38,789 nucleotides of DNA from Holospora curviuscula (GTDB lineage Bacteria > Pseudomonadota > Alphaproteobacteria > Holosporales > Holosporaceae): positions 1 through 38,789 of the forward strand of contig NZ_PHHC01000080.1 in NCBI RefSeq assembly GCF_002930195.1, given 5' to 3'. The notes beneath the pieces were generated by a model. That model saw nothing but the letters and a program-made list of their open reading frames with translations. It was not told where the DNA came from and made no database searches. A program made the position numbers and the translations under genes. Below, piece after piece: positions 10,561-37,643 of this stretch (its first letter is position 1; each line of letters begins with the position of its first letter).

Positions 10561-12066
10561 TTACGTTTTGGGTGTGTTGGGATCTAAATTTTCTTGTGCC
10601 TCTTGCTGAATCACTCTCCAAGGTGTCCTTGTTTGAACTTGTTGCCCTGGCTGTTGAACTTGTTGCCCTGGCTGTTGAACTTGGCGTTGGGCGTTTATTT
10701 TTTGCTCTTGGGGCAGTAGTCTTAGTTTTTCCCAAAAATTTTTAATATGTGTTATTTCCACACACGTTTGATCAGTGTACTCAGCGCCACACTTTGATAA
10801 ACATTTCCACGCGATCTGTTGTTTCGTCTCTCGATCAATGCTTGTTAGGGCTATTTCTTTGTCTGCAGTATAGAAAGCATTTTCTAAAGAAATAACTGAT
10901 CTTAAAAAACGCCATTTTTCTGCATCTTCTTGATTTTCGAGGAATAGTCCAGTTACGTTACGGATAATTTTTTCAAATTTTGGAAGCTTTTTTTTAATCT
11001 TTTCATCTTTACCCAATCTTTTTTCAACTTCTTCACCGGTATCGTTCATGACCGGTGCAGCATACCCATCACTTTCTGCATCATAACTAAACGCAGTGAA
11101 TACTATGCTACGAAGTGTTTTTTTTACTTCCATTTCTTGAGTAGGCTCAAAAAATTTAGGGAACTTTATCGTGGTTAAAGGACTTCCTAGAACGTGGAAC
11201 ACGTTTTCTATTCTGCTAGAAATTTCTTTTCCCTCTTCATTTAAATAAGAGGTAAACAATGGAATCCATTTTTGCAATTGTGGTAAATGCTGTGTATTTA
11301 CCCCCCACATATTAAGACAAGTTTGCACAGAATTTTCAAAAGCTCTTTCTTGATGTTCAGATGCTTCATCTTGGGGCAGTATAGGAGATTCTTCTTGGAA
11401 GTTTTTTGGTGGAATCCTTTTTAGAACTTTTGGGTCAGTTAGAATCTGTTGGTCTTCTTGAACTGTAGGAATGATTTGAAATTTTTCCAGTGTTTGCCAA
11501 AAATTTTTAATGTGTACCACCTCTACATAATGTGGAGTAGTGTACTGGGCTCCACATTTTGATAAACATTTCCACGCAATGTGTTGTTTTATATCTTCAT
11601 TAATGTTTTTGAGAGCAATCTGTTTGTCTTCAGGATAAGCGGCATCTTCTAAAGCAAGAACTGATCTCAAAAAGCGCCATCTTACTGAATCTTCTGGATT
11701 GTCAACGAACAATCCAGTTATTTTACGAACAATTTTTTCAAATTTTGGAAGCTTCTTTTTGTTCTCAACATCATTACGTACGCTTTTTTCCATGTCTTCA
11801 CCTGTATTTTTCATAATGGGGGAAGGATGTATAGCGCTTTTTGAATCGTATTTAAACGCAGTGAATACTATGTTACGAAATGCCTTTTTCATTTCTATAC
11901 TTTGATTAAGCTGTAGGGTATCGATTACACTCCCCACTAAGCTTGAAACTGCTTTTCCTTCTTCGTTCAGATAGGGGGTTAACAAGGGAATCAATTTTGT
12001 TAGCCCTCCAAAACACGTAGTGTTTACTATTATCGTGAATGCTAAAGTACACTGTATTTTTCTCAT
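10561..12066 (-). CDS. secreted protein with internal tandem duplication (family A), unknown function
   Basis: 501 residues; not recognised as any known family. Residues 1-20 look like a signal peptide (basic start M-R-K, then a hydrophobic stretch). Residues 25-196 and 267-449 are two copies of one domain: both carry P-Y/S-Y-L-N-E-E-G-K, a block ending F-T-A-F-x-Y-D, K-K-K-L-P-K-F-E-K-I, W-R-F-L-R-S-V, I-A-W-K-C-L-S-K-C-G-A and H-I-K-N-F-W. Each copy keeps a C-x3-C pair. A linker (197-266) separates them. After the second copy comes a Q-Q-P-G-Q-Q-V repeat (463-476) encoded by a perfect 21-base repeat. The ATG at 12066 has an AGGAG site 8 bases upstream. A sigma70-like promoter and a hairpin terminator bracket the gene, so it is monocistronic. 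Export and a host-facing role are inference. Confidence 0.8.
   Translation of the reverse strand: MRKIQCTLAFTIIVNTTCFGGLTKLIPLLTPYLNEEGKAVSSLVGSVIDTLQLNQSIEMKKAFRNIVFTAFKYDSKSAIHPSPIMKNTGEDMEKSVRNDVENKKKLPKFEKIVRKITGLFVDNPEDSVRWRFLRSVLALEDAAYPEDKQIALKNINEDIKQHIAWKCLSKCGAQYTTPHYVEVVHIKNFWQTLEKFQIIPTVQEDQQILTDPKVLKRIPPKNFQEESPILPQDEASEHQERAFENSVQTCLNMWGVNTQHLPQLQKWIPLFTSYLNEEGKEISSRIENVFHVLGSPLTTIKFPKFFEPTQEMEVKKTLRSIVFTAFSYDAESDGYAAPVMNDTGEEVEKRLGKDEKIKKKLPKFEKIIRNVTGLFLENQEDAEKWRFLRSVISLENAFYTADKEIALTSIDRETKQQIAWKCLSKCGAEYTDQTCVEITHIKNFWEKLRLLPQEQKINAQRQVQQPGQQVQQPGQQVQTRTPWRVIQQEAQENLDPNTPKT
10639..10680. repeat. two tandem copies of a 21-base unit
   Basis: The unit ccctggctgttgaacttgttg and its following copy encode, on the minus strand, the repeated heptapeptide Q-Q-P-G-Q-Q-V near the C-terminus of the family A protein. 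Such in-frame units can gain or lose copies by slippage without breaking the gene. Confidence 0.7.
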
Positions 12067-15712: not shown

Positions 15713-16985
15713 TCATTGAACTTTATTTGATAAATGCTTTAGTGTCTCGTTAAGCTTTTGATGGTGTTGTTTAAAATAGTCAATCTGTTTTCTAAATTGA
15801 TTGTAAAAATTTTCTACATATTTTATCTGTTGAAAGTGTTTTGAAAAATTTAATGTATCTTCCTGAGGAAATTTGTTAAGAAATTTATCAAGAAATGTAC
15901 AAAATCTTTTGAGAGTAAATTCATATTGAGCCTGAGCATCCGAACTATCTGAGAGCCTTAAATTCTGCTACTCCTGTTCTGGCTGATAAGTTATGAGATT
16001 CCATGCATCTGGAGTATGCGCATTGAGAAGAGACTGTGTTTTTTGAGAATCTATGAAAGTCCATTCGCCTGAAGCATGAGCATTCGGAAGCGTGCTGTTT
16101 GTTATAATCTTAAGGTTAGTTATGATTAGACCTATCTCATGATAAAATTGTTCTAAATAGTTAATTTGTGCTTTATTGTGTTTAATGTTAACAATAAAAC
16201 TTCCAATTTCTTCTTGAAAGATATTAGAACAGTTGAGAAATTTTTGTGAAGCACTATTCCTATCCGCAGCATGACCTTCACGTAACGTGTTGCAAGTATC
16301 TTGGTAAATACCATATTGCTTACACTGATCCTGAAAAAAATTTACAATTTTTTCATTAAGATTTCTAATTAAATCTTTTATTGAGGACGGTATTATTTGG
16401 AAAATATTTATTGAGGACGTCGAAGTACAAGAAAGTATTTTTATCTTTGGGTTTGATTGCTCAAGATTTTCAACGGGACAGTTTGCTCTACTGTGAGTAC
16501 TGTTGATGTTTGACGCTCCAAAGACCGCCGCTATGATTAACTCTAGTTCATGAATAGATCTATTGTGTTGGAGAAGCATATTTTTCAATTTTTTTTTAAT
16601 GGCATCATTTAGGGTTGGGTATTGATTTCGAAGACTTTTTGCTCTAACAATGATTTGCTGGGATTCTGCATGGCTCGGAAATAATGACTCAAAGTTTTCT
16701 TTATCAAGTTTATAATTTTCATTAAAGAAATCTTCGAAATCTGTGCCACCTACAAAGCTTAAGATATCGACCCTTGCCTTACTGCTTTCCTTCTTCATTT
16801 CTATTATTTTTTTTATCGTCATTATGAATGTTTGAATAAACTCATTGAATTTCTCTTTTGCAATATGGGGAAGTACTGTGTTCACAACAGAATCTTCAAT
16901 TGCTTTCCAATCATTCTGGTTTATTTTACCTTTTTGAACTTTGTCAAGTTCAGTGAAAAAGATTAGTACATTTTGATTTTTTTCT
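15713..16985 (-). pseudogene. broken family B gene (paralogue of the gene at 24474-25898)
   Basis: On the minus strand one frame runs from about 16985 to TGA at 15713-15715 with a single in-frame TAG at 15968-15970. It parallels the intact family B protein throughout: I-N-Q-N-D-W-K-A-I against I-K-Q-K-D-W-Q-E-I; D-F-E-D-F-F-N-E-N-Y against D-F-D-C-Y-F-T-R-V-Y; L-L-Q-H-N-R against L-L-K-H-N-R; A-A-V-F-G against G-A-I-F-G; and, beyond the TAG, K-Q-I-D-Y-F-K-Q-H-H-Q-K-L against K-K-I-K-N-F-K-K-C-H-Q-I-L. The 5' end, including the start and any signal peptide, is missing: homology stops at the boundary of an IS4-family relic. A GTG at 16885 would open a 305-residue product, but without export signal or C-terminus, so I call it dead. 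Confidence 0.75.
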
Positions 16986-24473: not shown

Positions 24474-25898
24474 TTATCGCAACAGGTGCGCGTGATCTTC
24501 CTCAAGAATTTGATGACATTTTTTAAAATTTTTAATCTTTTGTGCAAACTTTTCTTGAAAATTCACCCAAAATTCAATTGTTTCATGGTGTTGTTCCGGA
24601 TTTTGTGAATCCAGTCCAGCTTTTTGAGATATGGTATTAATATGTTTCTCAAGGGACTTATCAAAGTATATGTAGGTTAATTCTTCTTCACTATAGGGAT
24701 TATTCATAGCATTAAGCACTGAACTCTGCAACACTAGAGGTTCTGGATCTTGTTCTTGTTGAATATTCTGTAGCAGAGTTTTATTATTTTGATGAGAATT
24801 TATTTCGACGGATGCTAAATAAACAGTTTGAATATGACGCAATACCTTATTTAAATATTTATGAAAAACTTCTAAATTGTTAATCCGGTCTTTATTGTGT
24901 TGAAGCCGAAGAGCCTGAACTTCAAGTTTTTGCTGACGCTGTTTCTTAAAACATTCAGCCAATGATGCCGGAATTTTCTTCATATCCTCAAGATGAGAAA
25001 AACGTAAATCATTGAGTTGTTTCTGACAGATCTCCCATTGAGTGCGATGATAGGTAAAAAAATCTTTTAAACGTGTATTAAGATCTTGACTCAAATATCC
25101 GTGCGGATTACTCGTAAATTCACTACTTAACATATTGAGTGTTAAATCTAGGGGTAGGGCTTGAACCATTTCAATCTGTTGGGATTGGTTTTGTTTTTCT
25201 TCTCCAAATATAGCCCCTAGAATAAATTTTTGTTCTGAGGGAAATCGATTGTGTTTGAGCAAGAGTGCTTGTAATTTTTCTTTCATATGTACTACCAGCT
25301 CTGAATCATTGTATCTCTCTTTAAATTTTAGGGCTTTAGCAATAATTTTATCTCCTGAAGTATTTTCAGGAAATAAGACATTAAAGTCTTCCTTATTAAA
25401 TCTGTACACTCGCGTAAAATAGCAATCAAAATCTTTTCCTCTTAAAAGCGCTAGAATATCCGTTTTCAGCTCAACGCTTGTACGCTTAAATTTTTTTTCT
25501 TTTCCTTGCATACTATGCACGGCTTTTTTAATATGCTCCTTACATTTTATTAGAATTTTCTTTACTCCTTGCGTATCATCGGAAAAAGTATTGGTGCTTT
25601 CTAATTCCTCTAAAATATTGTCTTGTAAGTGTCCTTTAATACGCTGCTTTAGATCCTGAACAAAGTTTTTTAATTTGTCTTTCTTAATGTAGGGAAGCAT
25701 CTTATCCAGAATAAAAGTTTTAATTTCCTGCCAATCTTTCTGTTTTATTCCAGACTGTTCATTCATACATTCATTAAACATCGTTAAAAATTGTTCCGCG
25801 TTCCTACGTTGTTCTAAATCTGTTAAAACAGAAAACCCTTGACAACTTGTCATTATCAATAAGTAAACATATTTAAATTTTAATTTTCTAGTATTCAT
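24474..25898 (-). CDS. exported protein of unknown function (family B, intact copy)
   Basis: 474 residues from the ATG at 25898, which has GGAAG eight bases upstream; an upstream ATG (25922) adds eight residues but lacks such a site. Residues 1-23 are basic then hydrophobic (K-Y-V-Y-L-L-I-M-T-S-C-Q-G-F-S) and may act as a signal peptide; the Cys at 19 is not in a clear lipobox. The rest is charged, mostly helical-looking and hydrophilic, without a motif I know. A conserved block at about 145-232 (K-T-D-I-L-A-L-L-R-G-K-D-F to L-L-K-H-N-R and G-A-I-F-G) and the C-terminal segment 275-470 are shared with the broken paralogue at 15713-16985. A promoter lies directly upstream. A secreted, lineage-specific role is inference. 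Confidence 0.75.
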   Translation of the reverse strand: MNTRKLKFKYVYLLIMTSCQGFSVLTDLEQRRNAEQFLTMFNECMNEQSGIKQKDWQEIKTFILDKMLPYIKKDKLKNFVQDLKQRIKGHLQDNILEELESTNTFSDDTQGVKKILIKCKEHIKKAVHSMQGKEKKFKRTSVELKTDILALLRGKDFDCYFTRVYRFNKEDFNVLFPENTSGDKIIAKALKFKERYNDSELVVHMKEKLQALLLKHNRFPSEQKFILGAIFGEEKQNQSQQIEMVQALPLDLTLNMLSSEFTSNPHGYLSQDLNTRLKDFFTYHRTQWEICQKQLNDLRFSHLEDMKKIPASLAECFKKQRQQKLEVQALRLQHNKDRINNLEVFHKYLNKVLRHIQTVYLASVEINSHQNNKTLLQNIQQEQDPEPLVLQSSVLNAMNNPYSEEELTYIYFDKSLEKHINTISQKAGLDSQNPEQHHETIEFWVNFQEKFAQKIKNFKKCHQILEEDHAHLLR

Positions 25899-25930
25899 AA
25901 TAAAATCTTCCAAAAATAGCATACTGTTGC

Positions 25931-28602: not shown

Positions 28603-29636
28603 TGTTTTTTTAAGTCTAGCTGTTTGATCCCAGAGAGTTATGGTATATATTATGAAGATAATAATGCATGGAGAAAAAGCTTATGGGACAAGTATTACAC
28701 GCAAATGCCAGAACAACGGAGGCAATCCATAGAGAGATCCATGATAGTAAAGAGAGCATAGGAAAAGCGGCTAAAAGATTTAATGTTAACCCAAAAACAA
28801 TCATCAAGTGGAGAAAAAGAGAAGATACAGATACGAAAGACCTTCCCATGGGACCTAAAAAGATAAAATCTACAGTTCTATCAGAGACAGAAGAAGAGGC
28901 GAGTGTGGCTTTCAGACCGCTTACACCATTGCCTCTTGATGATGTTTTGTATAGCTTACAAGAAACTATTCCACATTTAAGTCGATCAACCCTTCATCGT
29001 TGCTTAAAGCGTCATGGCTGCTCTGTTTTGCCTAAAAAAGAAAGATCTACCTCTGCTGACAAAAAGAAATTTAAACACTATCCTATGGGTTACTTGCATA
29101 TAGATATAGCAGAAGTAAGGACAGCTGAAGGTAAGTTATATTTTACGTAGCAATAGATAGAACATCAAAATTTGCCTATGCAGAGCTCCATAAAAGCCAG
29201 ACTAAGATGATTGCCGCAGAGTTTTTACGTAACCTTATTAAAGCTCTACCTTATAAAATACATAAGGTGCGCACAGATAATGGGATTCAATGTACCAATC
29301 ATGATCATCATAAAAATGCTTTTACTCATATAGTTGAGCGTGTTTGCAATGAGCATCAGATAGAGCATAGAAAGACTAAGATCAAGCATCCTTGGACTAA
29401 TGGGCAGGTAGAACGAATGAACAGAACGCTTAAAGAGGCAACTGTAAACAATTTCCATTATGCATCTCATGATGAGCTGAAACAGCATCTGCATGCCTAT
29501 CTAATGGCTTATACCTTCGCTAAACGACTTAAAGCCATCAAAGGCAAAACTCCTTGGCAATTTATTCTAAATCAGTGGACAATTCATCCAGAATATTTTA
29601 CAATTAATCCTAACCATTTCTTAGCGGGACTAAACA
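28603..29636 (+). mobile_element. IS481-family insertion sequence, nearly intact
   Basis: The best preserved mobile element in the window. The right end tgtttagtcccgcta (minus strand, from 29636) resembles the left end around 28603-28622 (t-g-t-t-t, a T-run, then aagtctagct), an imperfect terminal inverted repeat. A transposase frame fills the interior. Insertion at the right boundary interrupts the decayed coiled-coil gene on the other strand (29637 onwards). Left boundary is approximate to a few bases; I could not identify a target duplication. Confidence 0.6.
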
Positions 29637-29668
29637 CATCTCCATTTAGGATTCTTGTATTTTTTTAA
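28668..29668 (+). pseudogene. IS481-family transposase, one frameshift
   Basis: First block (28668-29150): N-terminal helix-turn-helix with G-K-A-A-K-R-F-N-V-N-P-K-T-I-I-K-W-R, then H-L-S-R-S-T-L-H-R-C-L-K-R-H-G and the start of the DDE domain at Y-L-H-I-D-I-A-E-V (first Asp). Near 29150 the frame shifts at a run of T; V-A-I-D-R-T-S-K-F-A-Y continues in another frame. Second block: V-R-T-D-N-G-I-Q-C (second Asp), H-P-W-T-N-G-Q-V-E-R-M-N-R-T-L-K (Glu) and K-T-P-W-Q-F-I. All three catalytic residues survive, so one indel is the only obvious lesion and inactivation looks recent. The last few codons run into flanking DNA. Confidence 0.8.
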
Positions 29669-31880: not shown

Positions 31881-32160
31881 TTCATAATTCACAATTTATC
31901 TCAATTTTTTCCTTATGTCCCTTGGTTTATTTTTATGTGTAGGCTCTGTACTCTACGCTTACATCTCCAAGGCTTCTAGGCATAACTCCTGTATACGTTC
32001 ATCATTCCATAACGCATATCATTTCATCATTTATGCTTTTTAGGGGTTCTTTAATATCTCTACCCTTGAAAAAACATTAACTTATTTGATGAAACGCCTT
32101 ATTAAAGATTTCAGTACTCTTGACTGAATCTACACCTTTATTACCCATACTCATTTAATG
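31881..32160. other. spacer upstream of the family C array
   Basis: No gene or repeat recognised. It ends at the promoter of the first family C gene. Confidence 0.4.
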
Positions 32161-32189
32161 TTGACAAGGCTTAGTTTTATTCTTACACT
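32161..32189 (+). promoter_or_regulatory. promoter of family C copy 1
   Basis: Perfect TTGACA (32161-32166), 17-base spacer and TACACT (32184-32189), 33 bases before the ATG. The same arrangement recurs before other copies of the array, which supports it as functional. Confidence 0.65.
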
Positions 32190-32222
32190 TTTGAAGAAAA
32201 AAATTTTGTCCAGTGTGATTTT

Positions 32223-33623
32223 ATGAAAAATTTAATGTTAAAATATGTCATAATACTGTTTTTTTCTGGAGTGCTTGTTTGCCAAGACAGTGTGCATGCT
32301 GCTGATGAGCATGAGTATCCAAATAATCAAAAAAATCAGGGCCAACAAGAACTTGAGAATTTTCTTGAACAGACTTCAGAAAGTGCATTGGCGCAACTAA
32401 ATGCTGAACAAGATAATAATGTACAAAATTTATTGGTTCAACAGCGTATAGAATATCAACAGTATGAGCAAGATCAAGAAAGTATAAATCTTAAACTGAG
32501 TCAATTGATGCAAAAGAATAAAGAGATGCAAGAAGCTGAACAAACTTATAAAAAGGCTCGACAATCTCAAAAGGATACGTTGAAGCGAATGATAGAAGAA
32601 GATTCTGAGCAATCAAAATTAGAGATTCAGTCTATGAATAATGGATATCAAGAGATTATGAAACGAGTTATAGACGCTCAAACGCTTAAAGATCACGTAG
32701 CGACTCTAGAAGCTCTATATGCACCTCTACCATTTTGGGCTCAACAAGAGTATTGCAAAATGGTTCAAGAGGCTCTACAAGTGAGGGATCGAGTGAATTC
32801 GTCGATTTTAGAGACTCAACAGCTTCAAAGACAGCGTAATCAAGAGATGTTAAAGGGTAAAGAGATTCGATTTACTCAGCTCAATCAAATGCAGCAAAGG
32901 CATACACAATTTATTGAAGAATATGATAAGTCATCTCAATCTCAACAAGATCAACTGCAGAAAGAACTTCAACAACTTGCATGGCAACAAGCTGAGTTGA
33001 ATCAACGCGCTCGACCTGAGTGGGCTCAGTTTGATACAAAATATAATGAAATAGAGCTACAGTTACGCCAACCTCTTTTGGTTGAAATTGGCGTTACATC
33101 GCGTTTTCCGGATGTGTCTCATGATGCTTTGCAGCATCTACATAGCCAGTTGGAGCAAAAACAATATTTTTTAGGTAGAGCTGATCATCAAGATGAACTC
33201 CAGTCTTTGAATTTAATTCATAAAAATTCTCAAGGACACTATTTTTTACGGGCTATAGCGCGAGTTCGGAAAAATTGTCAGGGTCGTCGTTATCTAGAGT
33301 GTGCGGCTTTAGTTGACCGAAATCTTAAAGGAGGGCAAGTTCTTGAGCCTTTAAAATCAAAAGATTCAGTATCGCTTCAAGTTTTACAGTCTCTCCATCA
33401 AAATGATCCAGATCTAGTGCCTCCGAATGCCTTGTTTGATCCCTATATTGTTCCGCGAGACTCTCGTATTAAATTTTTTTTAGTGTTTTTGGAAGGAAAT
33501 CATAAATTCAGTACAAGAGTTCCAGAACCTTTCCAGAATCAGAAAACAAAACAGTGGGAAGATTTAGACGGTATTCCAGAAAATGAGGTCTCAAGAAAAA
33601 TAGAGCAAGCAGATCAGCAATAG
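32223..33623 (+). CDS. secreted glutamine-rich coiled-coil protein (family C copy 1, intact)
   Basis: 466 residues; no known family recognised. A classical signal peptide: M-K-N-L-M-L-K, hydrophobic core Y-V-I-I-L-F-F-S-G-V-L-V, and a cleavage site after V-H-A (residue 26). Residues about 40-150 and 190-275 are Gln/Glu/Lys-rich with heptad-like spacing, suggesting two long coiled coils separated by a segment with P-L-P-F-W-A-Q-Q-E-Y-C. The C-terminal ~180 residues are more globular, with R-R-Y-L-E-C-A-A-L-V-D-R-N-L, V-L-E-P-L-K-S-K, D-L-V-P-P-N-A-L-F-D-P-Y and W-E-D-L-D-G-I-P-E-N; these are also the parts best preserved in the dead copies downstream. The ribosome binding site is weak. Copy 1 of a five-unit tandem array and the only one open end to end. 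Likely exported; host-interaction role is inference. Confidence 0.8.
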   Translation: MKNLMLKYVIILFFSGVLVCQDSVHAADEHEYPNNQKNQGQQELENFLEQTSESALAQLNAEQDNNVQNLLVQQRIEYQQYEQDQESINLKLSQLMQKNKEMQEAEQTYKKARQSQKDTLKRMIEEDSEQSKLEIQSMNNGYQEIMKRVIDAQTLKDHVATLEALYAPLPFWAQQEYCKMVQEALQVRDRVNSSILETQQLQRQRNQEMLKGKEIRFTQLNQMQQRHTQFIEEYDKSSQSQQDQLQKELQQLAWQQAELNQRARPEWAQFDTKYNEIELQLRQPLLVEIGVTSRFPDVSHDALQHLHSQLEQKQYFLGRADHQDELQSLNLIHKNSQGHYFLRAIARVRKNCQGRRYLECAALVDRNLKGGQVLEPLKSKDSVSLQVLQSLHQNDPDLVPPNALFDPYIVPRDSRIKFFLVFLEGNHKFSTRVPEPFQNQKTKQWEDLDGIPENEVSRKIEQADQQ

Positions 33624-33688
33624 AACTCCCTAATGTTCCCGGGGTGTTGGAAAGATCCGCACTCTGGTGTGTTGATAAAAAATTTTTC

Positions 33689-33714
33689 TTGACAAAATAA
33701 ATTCGTTTTACAAT
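33689..33714 (+). promoter_or_regulatory. promoter-like sequence of family C copy 2
   Basis: TTGACA (33689-33694) and TACAAT (33709-33714), with only 14 bases between them instead of 17 as in the sister promoters. A three-base deletion in the spacer would explain this and would weaken the promoter of this dead copy. Confidence 0.4.
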
Positions 33715-33742
33715 GAGAGAGTAAACGTTAATAGGCTTTTTT

Positions 33743-34608
33743 ATGAAAAATTTAAAATTAAAGTATAAATTTCTATTGTCTTTTTTGTAATAGTGGCTTC
33801 ACTAAGAAGTGCGCACGCTTCAGGTGACAAAAATCAGACCAGTCAAGATCATCAAGGGCTACAAGATTAGCTTTCGCACATCCAATCGGCAGTTCTAAAT
33901 TTACTGTCTCAAACGTTTGATTTACTTACTGTATATTCTGAGCACATTAAACTCTTCTTTTAGAGATAATGAATGGTCCATACAAAACTTTATAGGTGAT
34001 CAACGGACTCAGTTAAAAGAAGAGAGTAAACTGCCTATAAAAGAAACCTCAGAAAATTTTTCTTGAAACGTAACTACAATTCCCTTCTATAAACCTGAGT
34101 TAAAAATCCCTGAACCTCTACTTTATGAGTTCAGCGCTTTATAACAGGGACAAAATAGCTTCAGAAAAAGAAAGACTATTTGAAGAAGTGTAGACTTTAC
34201 GGTCTCTACAGAATCAGCTGAATTAGAAACAGTATCGTTTAACGTGTATAAATTACAGCACAGATCCTTCTGAATATTTGATTATAAGAAATAAAAATTT
34301 CCAGAATTTAAATGGTGTGCAAGCTATAGCGAAGTTTTCCCCTCAAGTTTTGGAGAATGCTGCGGGTCAAAAAGTTTTTCAGCCTTTGCAGTCTAGAAGT
34401 TCAGCGTATCTTAAAATTTTTCTGGCTATCCAACAAACTAAGAGCACATTGATTCCGGAGGAAACTTTTTTGATTTAAATAAATTTACTAAAACCCCCTA
34501 AAAATTAACCGTTTTCTAGGAGTTCTAAAAAATAATTATTATGAAATGTCTACCAGAACTTTACAACACGGGGACGATTTAGAAGATACGCCAGAAAACA
34601 AAGCATAA
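33743..34608 (+). pseudogene. family C copy 2, decayed and shortened
   Basis: Starts with ATG and M-K-N-L-K-L-K-Y-K-F-L-L-S-F, followed, after a frameshift, by S-L-R-S-A-H-A (signal peptide end as in copy 1). The coiled-coil part is largely deleted and full of stops. The C-terminal part is readable at 34278-34478 (A-G-Q-K-V-F-Q-P-L-Q-S-R-S-S-A-Y-L, S-T-L-I-P-E-E-T-F) and 34540-34608 (S-T-R-T-L-Q-H, D-L-E-D-T-P-E-N), parallel to copy 1. Confidence 0.65.
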
Positions 34609-34691
34609 AAAAATTAAGCAATAAGAGTAGGAGCAATAATAGAATGCGTTAGATATATCAGATGCGTTAAATAATTTTACAATATTAGTTT

Positions 34692-35050
34692 ATAAGAAAT
34701 TTAAAAATAAAATAATAAAAAAAGAAATTCTATTTTTTTTTGGAGTGCTTGTTTTAGAAGATAGTGTGAATGCTGCTGACGAGCAAAAAGATTCAAAGAC
34801 TCAAAAAAATCAGACTTAACAGCGGCTACAGAATGTATCTTAGACATGCTCACAATCTGTTGCATTGCGTAATTCATCGGATTGTACAGCTTAAACGAGC
34901 TAGAACTTAGACAATATGAATTGACTCAATGTATTCCTGAAGGGAAGGGAACCAACAACACGCTTAATAGTGTAGGCAATATTTTAATAATGCTTCCCAA
35001 AAGTAGTTCTTAAAGAAAGTACATCCAATACGACTCGTTAATATTCTAAG
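34692..35050 (+). pseudogene. family C copy 3, N-terminal fragment
   Basis: The start codon has become ATA. The signal peptide (I-L-F-F-F-G-V-L-V, D-S-V-N-A-A-D-E-Q-K-D) and Q-K-N-Q-T follow, matching copy 1 (D-S-V-H-A-A-D-E-H), then a stop. The coiled-coil and C-terminal parts are missing or unreadable. No promoter like those of its sisters was found upstream. Confidence 0.6.
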
Positions 35051-35070
35051 AGTTGTTGACCTCATCCTCT

Positions 35071-35099
35071 TGTTACCTATAAACATTTATCTTGATAGG
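35071..35099 (+). repeat. array-associated repeat, copy 1
   Basis: The block tgttacctataaacattta plus tcttgata recurs nearly unchanged at 36543-36571 (tgttacctataaaaattta plus ccttgata). Both stand between family C units, so it is probably part of the duplicated unit. At the second site its end forms the -35 box of a promoter. Confidence 0.55.
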
Positions 35100-35140
35100 C
35101 GTCATGAGATCACGGATTTTTTGAACTTTTTTAATTTATG

Positions 35141-35169
35141 TTGACAACGCATAGTGATCTCCTTATACT
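35141..35169 (+). promoter_or_regulatory. promoter of family C copy 4
   Basis: TTGACA (35141-35146), 17-base spacer, TATACT (35164-35169), 29 bases before the former start codon. Well preserved although the gene is dead. Confidence 0.55.
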
Positions 35170-35198
35170 CAGGGAAAAAAATTTTCTAGTGTAATTTT

Positions 35199-36528
35199 AT
35201 AAAAAATTTAACTTCAAAATATATAGAAATACTGGTTTTTTTGTGCGCTTGTTTTAGAAGATAGCGCGGATGCTGCTGACAAGCAAAAAGATTCAAAGAA
35301 ACAAAAAAATTAGGATCAACAAGAGGTAGAGTGTTTTTTGCACAGGTTCCACGGAATGCATTGGCTCAAGGGAACAATGAACAAGATAATAATGTACAAA
35401 ATTTATTGGTTCAACAGCGCATAGAATTTCACAAATATAAACAAGCGCAAGAGAATATACGTTTTATACTCAATCAGTTCAAAAAAAAGAATATAGAGAT
35501 AAAAAAAGCTGAGCAGGCTTACAAAGATAATCAACAATCAATCCCAAAAAGATACATTAGAGGGAACGCTAGAGGAAGACTATGCACAATCAAAATCCGA
35601 GTCTTAATATATGAATAATGAAGCTCAAGAAGCAATAAAACGCATGAAAAGTTTTGTAGAGTATAGCTTGGAAGTAGTAGGTCTAGAGTTGTTATATCAA
35701 TTCTCACCATTCCAGACCCAACAAGAGCTTGACCCAGTACTTCAAAATGCTTTACGAAAAAGGGATCAAGTGATTTTTTTAGATCTAATGGCTAAACAAC
35801 GTCGAACACAAAATTATGAACGAATTCAACACGATAGAGAGATTTGAGTAGCTGGGATTAACCAAATGAAGCTAGAGCATAAAAAATTTCTGGAGGAATT
35901 TTCTCAATCTCGACACGCTCAAGTTATGACAGAACTTGCACAACTGAAATGAGAGCAAGTTGAATTGTATCAACGGGCTTGGCCTGAATGGGCTCAATTT
36001 AGAGTAGAATATAATCAAACGGAGTTAAGCAAACAGCAGTTTTTTTAGTTGAAATAGGGATTTCCTTGTACTTTATGGATGTGTCCAATAATACTTTAGA
36101 GTATCTACAAGCTCAGCTTGGTCAGGCACAATATCGTATGGTAGTCTAGAGAATCACAAAGATCAATCTCAGTGACAGATTATCAGGGTTTTCGGTATCT
36201 AGAATTCGCGGCGCTTGTTGATCAGAATCTTCAAGGACAGAAGATCCTTGAGTCTTTAAAATCTAAACCAGCACCACTTCATGGTTTACAGGCTCTTCAT
36301 AAAATTAATCCAGATCTAGTTCCTTCAAATGCTTTGTTTTATCCGTATATCATTCCTCAAGATTTGCGCATTCAACGTTTTTTAAATACTCTAAAAAGGA
36401 ATGATGAATGCGGTCTAAGCACTCAGAGCACTCTTAAACTTGAACAGTCTTTTCAGGCTCAAAAAGCAAAATAGCAGCAGGATTTAGATTAGATTCTAGA
36501 ACACAAGGTCTCAAAAAAAAGAGAGTAA
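35199..36528 (+). pseudogene. family C copy 4, full length but inactivated
   Basis: Collinear with copy 1 over its whole length. The start codon is ATA in place of ATG. Later lesions include in-frame TAG after K-K-Q-K-N near 35312, a frameshift near 35545 (N-Q-Q-S-I then Q-K-D-T-L), TAA near 35610, TGA near 35845 and 35950, and TAG near 36048. Preserved blocks: N-E-Q-D-N-N-V-Q-N-L-L-V-Q-Q-R-I-E-F, Q-R-A-W-P-E-W-A-Q-F, Y-L-E-F-A-A-L-V-D-Q-N-L, I-L-E-S-L-K-S-K and D-L-V-P-S-N-A-L-F-Y-P-Y. A 42-base stretch (35378-35419) is identical to 32405-32446 of copy 1. Confidence 0.8.
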
Positions 36529-36542
36529 TAAGACCTAAGATC

Positions 36543-36571
36543 TGTTACCTATAAAAATTTACCTTGATATG
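36543..36571 (+). repeat. array-associated repeat, copy 2
   Basis: Near-identical to 35071-35099, differing at a few positions; see that entry. Confidence 0.55.
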
Positions 36572-36592
36572 GTTTATTTATATCCTTATAGT
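36564..36592 (+). promoter_or_regulatory. promoter of family C copy 5 (gene lost)
   Basis: TTGATA (36564-36569), 17-base spacer, TATAGT (36587-36592). It is followed by tgtaattttgtgaaaaa, the same leader and start region as copies 1 and 4 but with GTG as start, after which homology ends at an IS630 relic. A promoter now facing a transposon remnant. Confidence 0.5.
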
Positions 36593-36611
36593 TGCAAAGA
36601 AAGCGTTTTAT

Positions 36612-36640
36612 AGAATGTAATTTTGTGAAAAAAAAGCAGT
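36612..36640 (+). pseudogene. family C copy 5, start region only
   Basis: Only the leader and the first codons (GTG then a run of Lys codons) remain, joined to the IS630 relic. Identified by its upstream sequence matching copies 1 and 4. Confidence 0.4.
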
Positions 36641-37134
36641 ATTATCCATGACAATACCACGGTTTTCTGGGATATTGCTTTTATCCAACAAGTCAATACC
36701 TCTACAGAACCCGTAAGAAATCCAATGCCCACTAAAGTAGAGCCCATTAAAGCACCTATACTATTTGTTCTACTTTTGGCACCCCAATCCTGTTTTCCCT
36801 AACAACGCTGCCCTTCTACAGAATACCTGTGAGTTTTTTGCATATCATGTGGAAATCCAGCTTTATCAACTTTGTTTTTTAATTTATCACGCTTTTCGCA
36901 CACTACAAATCTTTTTTCTGGAGCTTCCTTTGGATGATTTAAAGCAAACACCGAGACGTCTCAAGGCTTTCAAAATTCTAAAAGCGCTAACCCCACAGCG
37001 CTCTGGTTCTAAACGCGTACTCCTTCTATACTCTGCTTACCCATTTTAAAACGGCTACCCGATTCCTCATAGCTCACCCCTTCTTTCTTCTTAATTCCTA
37101 AAATCTTACGACGCAAATCTAATGCATACGACAT
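36641..37134 (-). mobile_element. IS630-family transposase relic
   Basis: Minus strand, ATG at 37134: M-S-Y-A-L-D-L-R-R-K-I-L with a helix-turn-helix (V-S-Y-E-E-S-G-S-R-F-K-M-G-K-Q-S-I), then after deletions and shifts P-H-D-M-Q-K-T-H-R-Y-S-V-E-G-Q-R-C, K-Q-D-W-G-A-K-S-R-T-N-S-I-G-A-L-M-G, K-S-N-I-P-E-N-R-G-I-V-M-D-N-T-A (second catalytic Asp). It breaks off there, so the C-terminal domain with the catalytic Glu is missing. It is of the subtype with A-L-D/R-K-I-L start and differs from the two other IS630 relics. Confidence 0.7.
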
Positions 37135-37643
37135 ATTTTCTTTTTTTATAACTATTTTATAGTTATTTTTCTGTACTGTAAAAAAATTGAGAACCACAAA
37201 AAAAGTCGTGCTATCATCTTTATTGATAAGCGGAGATTTTCCCATGATATTCCAAGAACACGTGGGCATGCCTTAAAAGGAAGCGCTATTCATCTCTGAG
37301 GTGCTAAGCGCTGAGGTAAATGAATGAATACTTTATCAGAAGAAGTTCTTCTGACCGTGAGTTAGAGAGGGTGAAAGCTATAGAATCTGTAGGACACACG
37401 CTTTTTTAGTAAGTGTAGTCACAAGATATAATTTGAACCATCGTTAAAAGAAGATTTGATATTCGTGAAATACCTCGATCGCTCTAAGGCTTAATATACA
37501 GGCAAGCATTTTCAACGATAGTAAATAAATTCTGACCACAAAAAAAGCTTTAAAAGCGTGGCATAATTTAATGAAAATGTATGCTATTTTTGATTCTTCG
37601 TTTCATACGCTTTAAAACTATCTTTGGTTATGTTTCTCTAATT
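37135..37643. other. gene-poor spacer
   Basis: About 500 bases with no recognisable gene, repeat or RNA. It holds the 3' side of the membrane protein gene and the 5' side of the IS630 relic; no terminator is obvious. Confidence 0.45.

Follow-up and report, generated by a model that had tools for sequence, protein, structure and literature searches.

Of the systems closest to the locus reported here, two kinds are described from other bacteria. The msp2/p44 genes of Anaplasma, likewise an intracellular alphaproteobacterium, combine one full gene with broken copies, and silent copies feed a single expression site by gene conversion, as one account outlines it (PMC11946796). The second kind comprises the novel proteins held in the large periplasm of Holospora obtusa (63-kDa PRP1 and the 89-, 39-, 15- and 5.4-kDa proteins), to which the array family can be likened by description. 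In the infectious form of H. obtusa, novel periplasmic proteins act in infection and several have signal peptides; the 63-kDa protein is secreted into the host nucleus and the 89-kDa protein is displayed at the invasion tip (PMC9866348, PMC5911502). According to a review, Holospora lacks a type VI system, although almost all other Holosporineae sequenced so far have retained it (PMC11909080). This makes Sec-based display plausible in the genus.

The window analysed here, meaning the whole stretch of 38,789 nucleotides, comes from Holospora curviuscula, which inhabits the macronucleus of Paramecium bursaria. The draft genome of H. curviuscula NRB217 comprises 1,715,500 bp in 152 scaffolds (PMC5911502).

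One intact and four dead copies in tandem

One gene has been duplicated head to tail in this window, giving about five copies, of which copy 1 is intact and four are dead (Table 1). An initial annotation had described a five-copy tandem array led by a full-length copy 1, and its coordinates and decay states hold in blastn, profile searches and shuffles. When the region was compared with itself by blastn, copies 1 and 4 matched over 32155-33613 and 35135-36533 (65% DNA identity, E 2e-171), collinear across 1.4 kb, while the match to copy 3 covered the first 180 bp (32198-32371 and 34669-34846, E 4e-23) and copy 2 matched copy 1 at both ends (N-terminus E 9e-10, C-terminus E 6e-6). A profile search recovered the same pieces and copy 2 also at 34194-34466 (E 2e-4). 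The 63 nt of copy 5 at 36570-36632 share the register of copies 1 and 4 when aligned to them, with scores that none of 2000 mononucleotide shuffles reached in either case. The copies are therefore related by sequence, not a row of unrelated genes. The 27-nt spacer that recurs after copies 3 and 4 is expected from a tandem duplication unit; the segment between these two copies (34857-35071) has no match elsewhere in the window.

Table 1. Positions of the array copies, associated elements and similar genes (window coordinates unless C131 or C15 is named)
Feature	Position	Strand	State and evidence
Copy 1 promoter-like site	32161-32189	+	TTGACA-17-TACACT; 10/12 matches; 33 nt upstream of start codon
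Copy 1	32223-33623	+	intact, 466 aa, single open frame; ORF and translation
Copy 2	33739-34626	+	dead; stops and frameshifts; blastn, profile match
Copy 2, N-terminal part	33739-33866	+	middle shortened, not alignable
Copy 2, C-terminal part	about 34194-34626	+	
Copy 3	34669-34856	+	dead N-terminal stub; no start ATG; stops at positions of aa 41 and 49
Spacer after copy 3	35071-35097	+	93% identical to spacer after copy 4 (36543-36569); repeat D16; blastn E 0.001
Copy 4 promoter-like site	35141-35169	+	TTGACA-17-TATACT; best match of the region, 11/12
Copy 4	35199-36533	+	dead, close to full length; ATA at the start; 6 frameshifts and 6 stops in frame
42-nt tract in copy 4	35378-35419	+	shared without mismatch by copy 1 (about 32405-32446, codons 61-75); 0/5000 codon-column shuffles reach 42
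Copy 5	36564-36632	+	promoter-like site and start region only; register alignment with copies 1 and 4
Copy 5 promoter-like site	within 36564-36632	+	TTGATA-17-TATAGT; register shared with copies 1 and 4
Decayed insertion element	36633-37176		cuts copy 5; left end 36633 common to most copies found, right end approximate
C131up relatives	15968-16885 and 24474-25922	-	similarity to 764-aa C131 protein
Family B, C131	6253-7890		545 aa; leader similar to copy 1
Family B, C15	19759-21471		leader similar to copy 1

A frameshift-aware alignment of copies 1 and 4 gave 429 codon pairs and placed the two collinearly despite the frameshifts and stops. Copy 4 had been described as full length with point lesions; near full length it is, but its damage goes beyond points, with about 26 codons deleted in addition to the frameshifts and the start ATG now ATA. 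Both copy 3 (34692) and copy 4 (35199) carry ATA where the start is expected. Where copy 4 has its stops, copy 1 has codons for Gln (three), Arg, Trp and Gly (one each). The three stops at Gln positions are what would be seen if copies 2-5 were alive and read in the code of the ciliate host (TAA/TAG = Gln), but two stops are TGA, the six frameshifts persist, and copy 4 is still broken under code 6, with no frame longer than about 230 codons, so that we reject this reading for copy 4 and give it practically no weight for the other copies. It is also extremely unlikely that the lesions are assembly or sequencing errors. The genome is repeat-rich and its draft fragmented, which would favour such errors, but it was sequenced with Illumina reads, so the divergence between copies 1 and 4 is real, and at about 32% it is impossible from error.

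The description of copy 5 as a start region only stands, with the correction that it owes its shortness to an insertion element whose left end lies at 36633. Sequences matching this element occur at about 40 sites across the genome, with copies 69-85% identical across the main part, and we take it to be probably of the IS630 type, judging from the ORF at 37009-37269 on the minus strand. On C131, a dead gene of family B harbours one of its copies. A different, integrase-core insertion element lies at 28668-29668, in two frames, and a nearly identical one adjoins the family B genes on C15 (L039 9571-10520).

Sigma-70-like matches number 19 in the region against 15.8 expected, and the three best of them precede copies 4, 1 and 5, all at the same place. 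At least three copies have kept a promoter-like site of their own.

Selection history of copies 1 and 4

Because no orthologue of copy 1 was found, selection was estimated from the paralogues 1 and 4. Their dN/dS was 0.46 (NG86) on a protein-guided codon alignment, which favours conserved codons. In six neutral-decay simulations with 100 runs each, dN/dS averaged 0.67-0.87 and stops averaged 23-30. If the duplicates had never been functional and had decayed from birth, lesions in every extra copy would be expected, as is found, and the near-equal numbers of differences at codon positions 1 and 3 (151 and 143) would fit as well. Against this, the observed ratio lies under all 600 simulated values (lowest 0.48), copy 4 has only 6 stops, and the share of differences at codon position 2 is 0.278 against 0.31-0.32 in the simulations. 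With YN00 the ratio rises to about 0.74 (0.39/0.53), which falls within the simulated NG86 range. Decay from birth is disfavoured for copy 4, and we consider it unlikely as an account of the array. The low NG86 ratio together with the six stops indicates instead that copies 1 and 4 diverged mostly as separate working genes under past purifying selection, and that copy 4 died late. Judged solely from the number of stops, about one quarter of their divergence would post-date the death of copy 4. The initial annotation had proposed expansion followed by decay, and this is borne out: the extra copies carry lesions, and copy 4 bears the mark of past purifying selection, so the expansion was functional.

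One intact copy next to several broken ones is also the arrangement of a silent-cassette system, in which the broken copies would donate to copy 1 by gene conversion, like the functional pseudogenes of Anaplasma msp2/p44. The tract of 42 nt that is identical in copies 1 and 4, a length reached in no shuffle (Table 1), is the only hint in this direction; it is absent from the compared loci outside the array and hints at one short gene conversion or at unusual constraint there. However, it is a single tract, the next longest identical run being 13 nt, and divergence is spread along the whole gene with no conserved flanks around a variable core. Unlike the msp2/p44 copies, moreover, those of the array are broken by stops and frameshifts throughout the body, and promoter-like sites persist in register at copies 4 and 5 where cassette donors would be promoterless. 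A cassette system is therefore quite improbable, and less so only than the readings based on the ciliate code or on error.

A predicted helical protein of an apparently unrecognised family

The copy 1 protein consists of a leader (residues 1-26), a Gln-rich spacer, a predicted helical hairpin (37-262) and a C-terminal region (about 280-466). Read by eye, its N-terminus, MKNLMLKYVIILFFSGVLVCQDSVHA/AD (the slash marks the cut), has a positive start, a hydrophobic core and a VHA/A cleavage-like site, from which Sec export may be inferred. Cut after residue 26, the mature protein would have about 52 kDa and a pI of 5.5; Gln makes up 15% of the precursor. AlphaFold2 predicts two long helices (37-165 and 171-262) that form the hairpin, with pLDDT of about 70-81 across most of it and a pTM of 0.32 overall, i.e. 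moderate confidence for the hairpin, as well as a helix at 4-18 in the leader with low pLDDT. The long helices proposed initially are thus also predicted by structure modelling. The C-terminal region yielded no confident model (pLDDT 35.5 when folded separately), and with 54% identity between copies 1 and 4 it is conserved, as had been claimed.

Against Pfam, NCBIfam and PHROGs the best E-values of copy 1 were 0.017-0.03, far below the cut-offs where these exist, and no sequence match was found in the PDB. The structure search proposed alongside the initial annotation succeeded in so far as a long helical hairpin was predicted, but the fold search against the PDB returned nothing at E <0.001, the weaker matches being generic coiled coils and F-BAR proteins. 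No match to a housekeeping family was seen for copy 1, and its own family is apparently new or unrecognised, as first suggested.

Distribution of the array family and other private secreted-looking families

The H. undulata genome (1.40 Mb in 203 contigs) and that of H. obtusa (1.33 Mb in 91 contigs) served for comparison within the genus. A protein search with copy 1 found no relatives in either of them or in 58 other genomes, and the array profile gave nothing beyond one chance-level match (E 0.785) across 20 relatives; in H. obtusa, neither search produced a match. Scans of GTDB and IMG/VR with copy 1 and the C-terminal alignment, which need short exact peptide patterns and can miss distant relatives, returned no relative. 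As judged by these searches, the array family is private to the H. curviuscula lineage, whereas the 89-kDa protein of H. obtusa is reported to be conserved in all Holospora studied. A search for the D5_N domain reported in PRP1 drew a blank in both H. obtusa and H. undulata; the H. curviuscula genome gave one match outside the array region, below threshold, and PRP1 was not located. The membrane protein adjoining the array has a weak relative (28%, orthology insecure) in H. undulata, close to two secreted-looking paralogues in tandem at C170.

A 39-aa leader query against the same genome outside the array gave matches at C15 (E 5e-6), C85 (1e-5) and C131 (0.02), the next exceeding 0.4. The family B proteins on C15 and C131 have leaders similar to that of copy 1 (residues 6-62, hhalign E 3e-5), but their mature parts are without detectable similarity to it. 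As in the array, family B on C131 includes a decayed second copy, interrupted by a repeat element. A third family, C131up, is represented on C131 by a secreted-looking protein of 764 aa (L041 1240-3534), and its relatives in the window have no match in H. undulata or H. obtusa. These two further private families show copying (tandem or internal), decay or a similar leader. At C85 (L038 6781-7345), a dead gene joins a copy 1-like leader to a body resembling the 764-aa protein. Deep homology between the bodies of the array family and those of the two other families was considered and is unsupported beyond the leader. Within the window, a 501-aa ORF at 10561-12066 on the minus strand has a secreted-looking N-terminus and two similar halves, i.e. 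an internal duplication. The tandem pair of H. undulata at C170 (L048 3203-4943; 43% over 102 aa) was found in neither H. curviuscula nor H. obtusa.

Discussion

We regard the locus as probably a birth-and-death array for a secreted protein private to its lineage; this product would be exported by Sec, reside in the periplasm and be released to the host. Tandem paralogues, past purifying selection and pseudogenes, by which such arrays are recognised, are all present. A single gene was duplicated head to tail, copies 1 and 4 diverged as separately working genes, and stops, frameshifts, deletions and an insertion element then disabled every copy except copy 1. Sec may deliver the product into the enlarged periplasm, where it would form a long helical hairpin and perhaps oligomerize. 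By analogy with other periplasmic proteins of Holospora, the infectious form may keep a store of it that is released or exposed as the bacterium invades the Paramecium nucleus; a role of copy 1 towards the host is inferred on the same grounds. Paralogues might have been lost because the host changed or the need for them relaxed, with drift acting as well in a small population of symbionts.

That secreted paralogues of an intracellular bacterium arise and die in this way is already known, while the family and its place in Holospora are apparently new. A broader pattern is conceivable, although we hold it doubtful: each Holospora species might evolve private secreted helical proteins, some of them combining a similar leader with unrelated bodies. 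Their turnover, through tandem duplication, now and then gene conversion, and death, would keep pace with specificity for host species and nucleus.

A comparative study of 2018 described the genes common to Holospora species and sought specificity genes among those shared by the two macronuclear species, an approach that overlooks species-private families. It found frameshifts in 9 of 615 checked ORFs and concluded that pseudogenes are few, perhaps an underestimate (PMC5911502). The array alone holds four dead copies, and the two other private families here together with the one in H. undulata point the same way. One intact copy beside dead ones suggests that secreted proteins private to a species turn over fast. 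The private families amount to a concrete, short list of candidate secreted proteins for testing, and they would bear on the recognition of a single host species and a single nucleus by each Holospora species.
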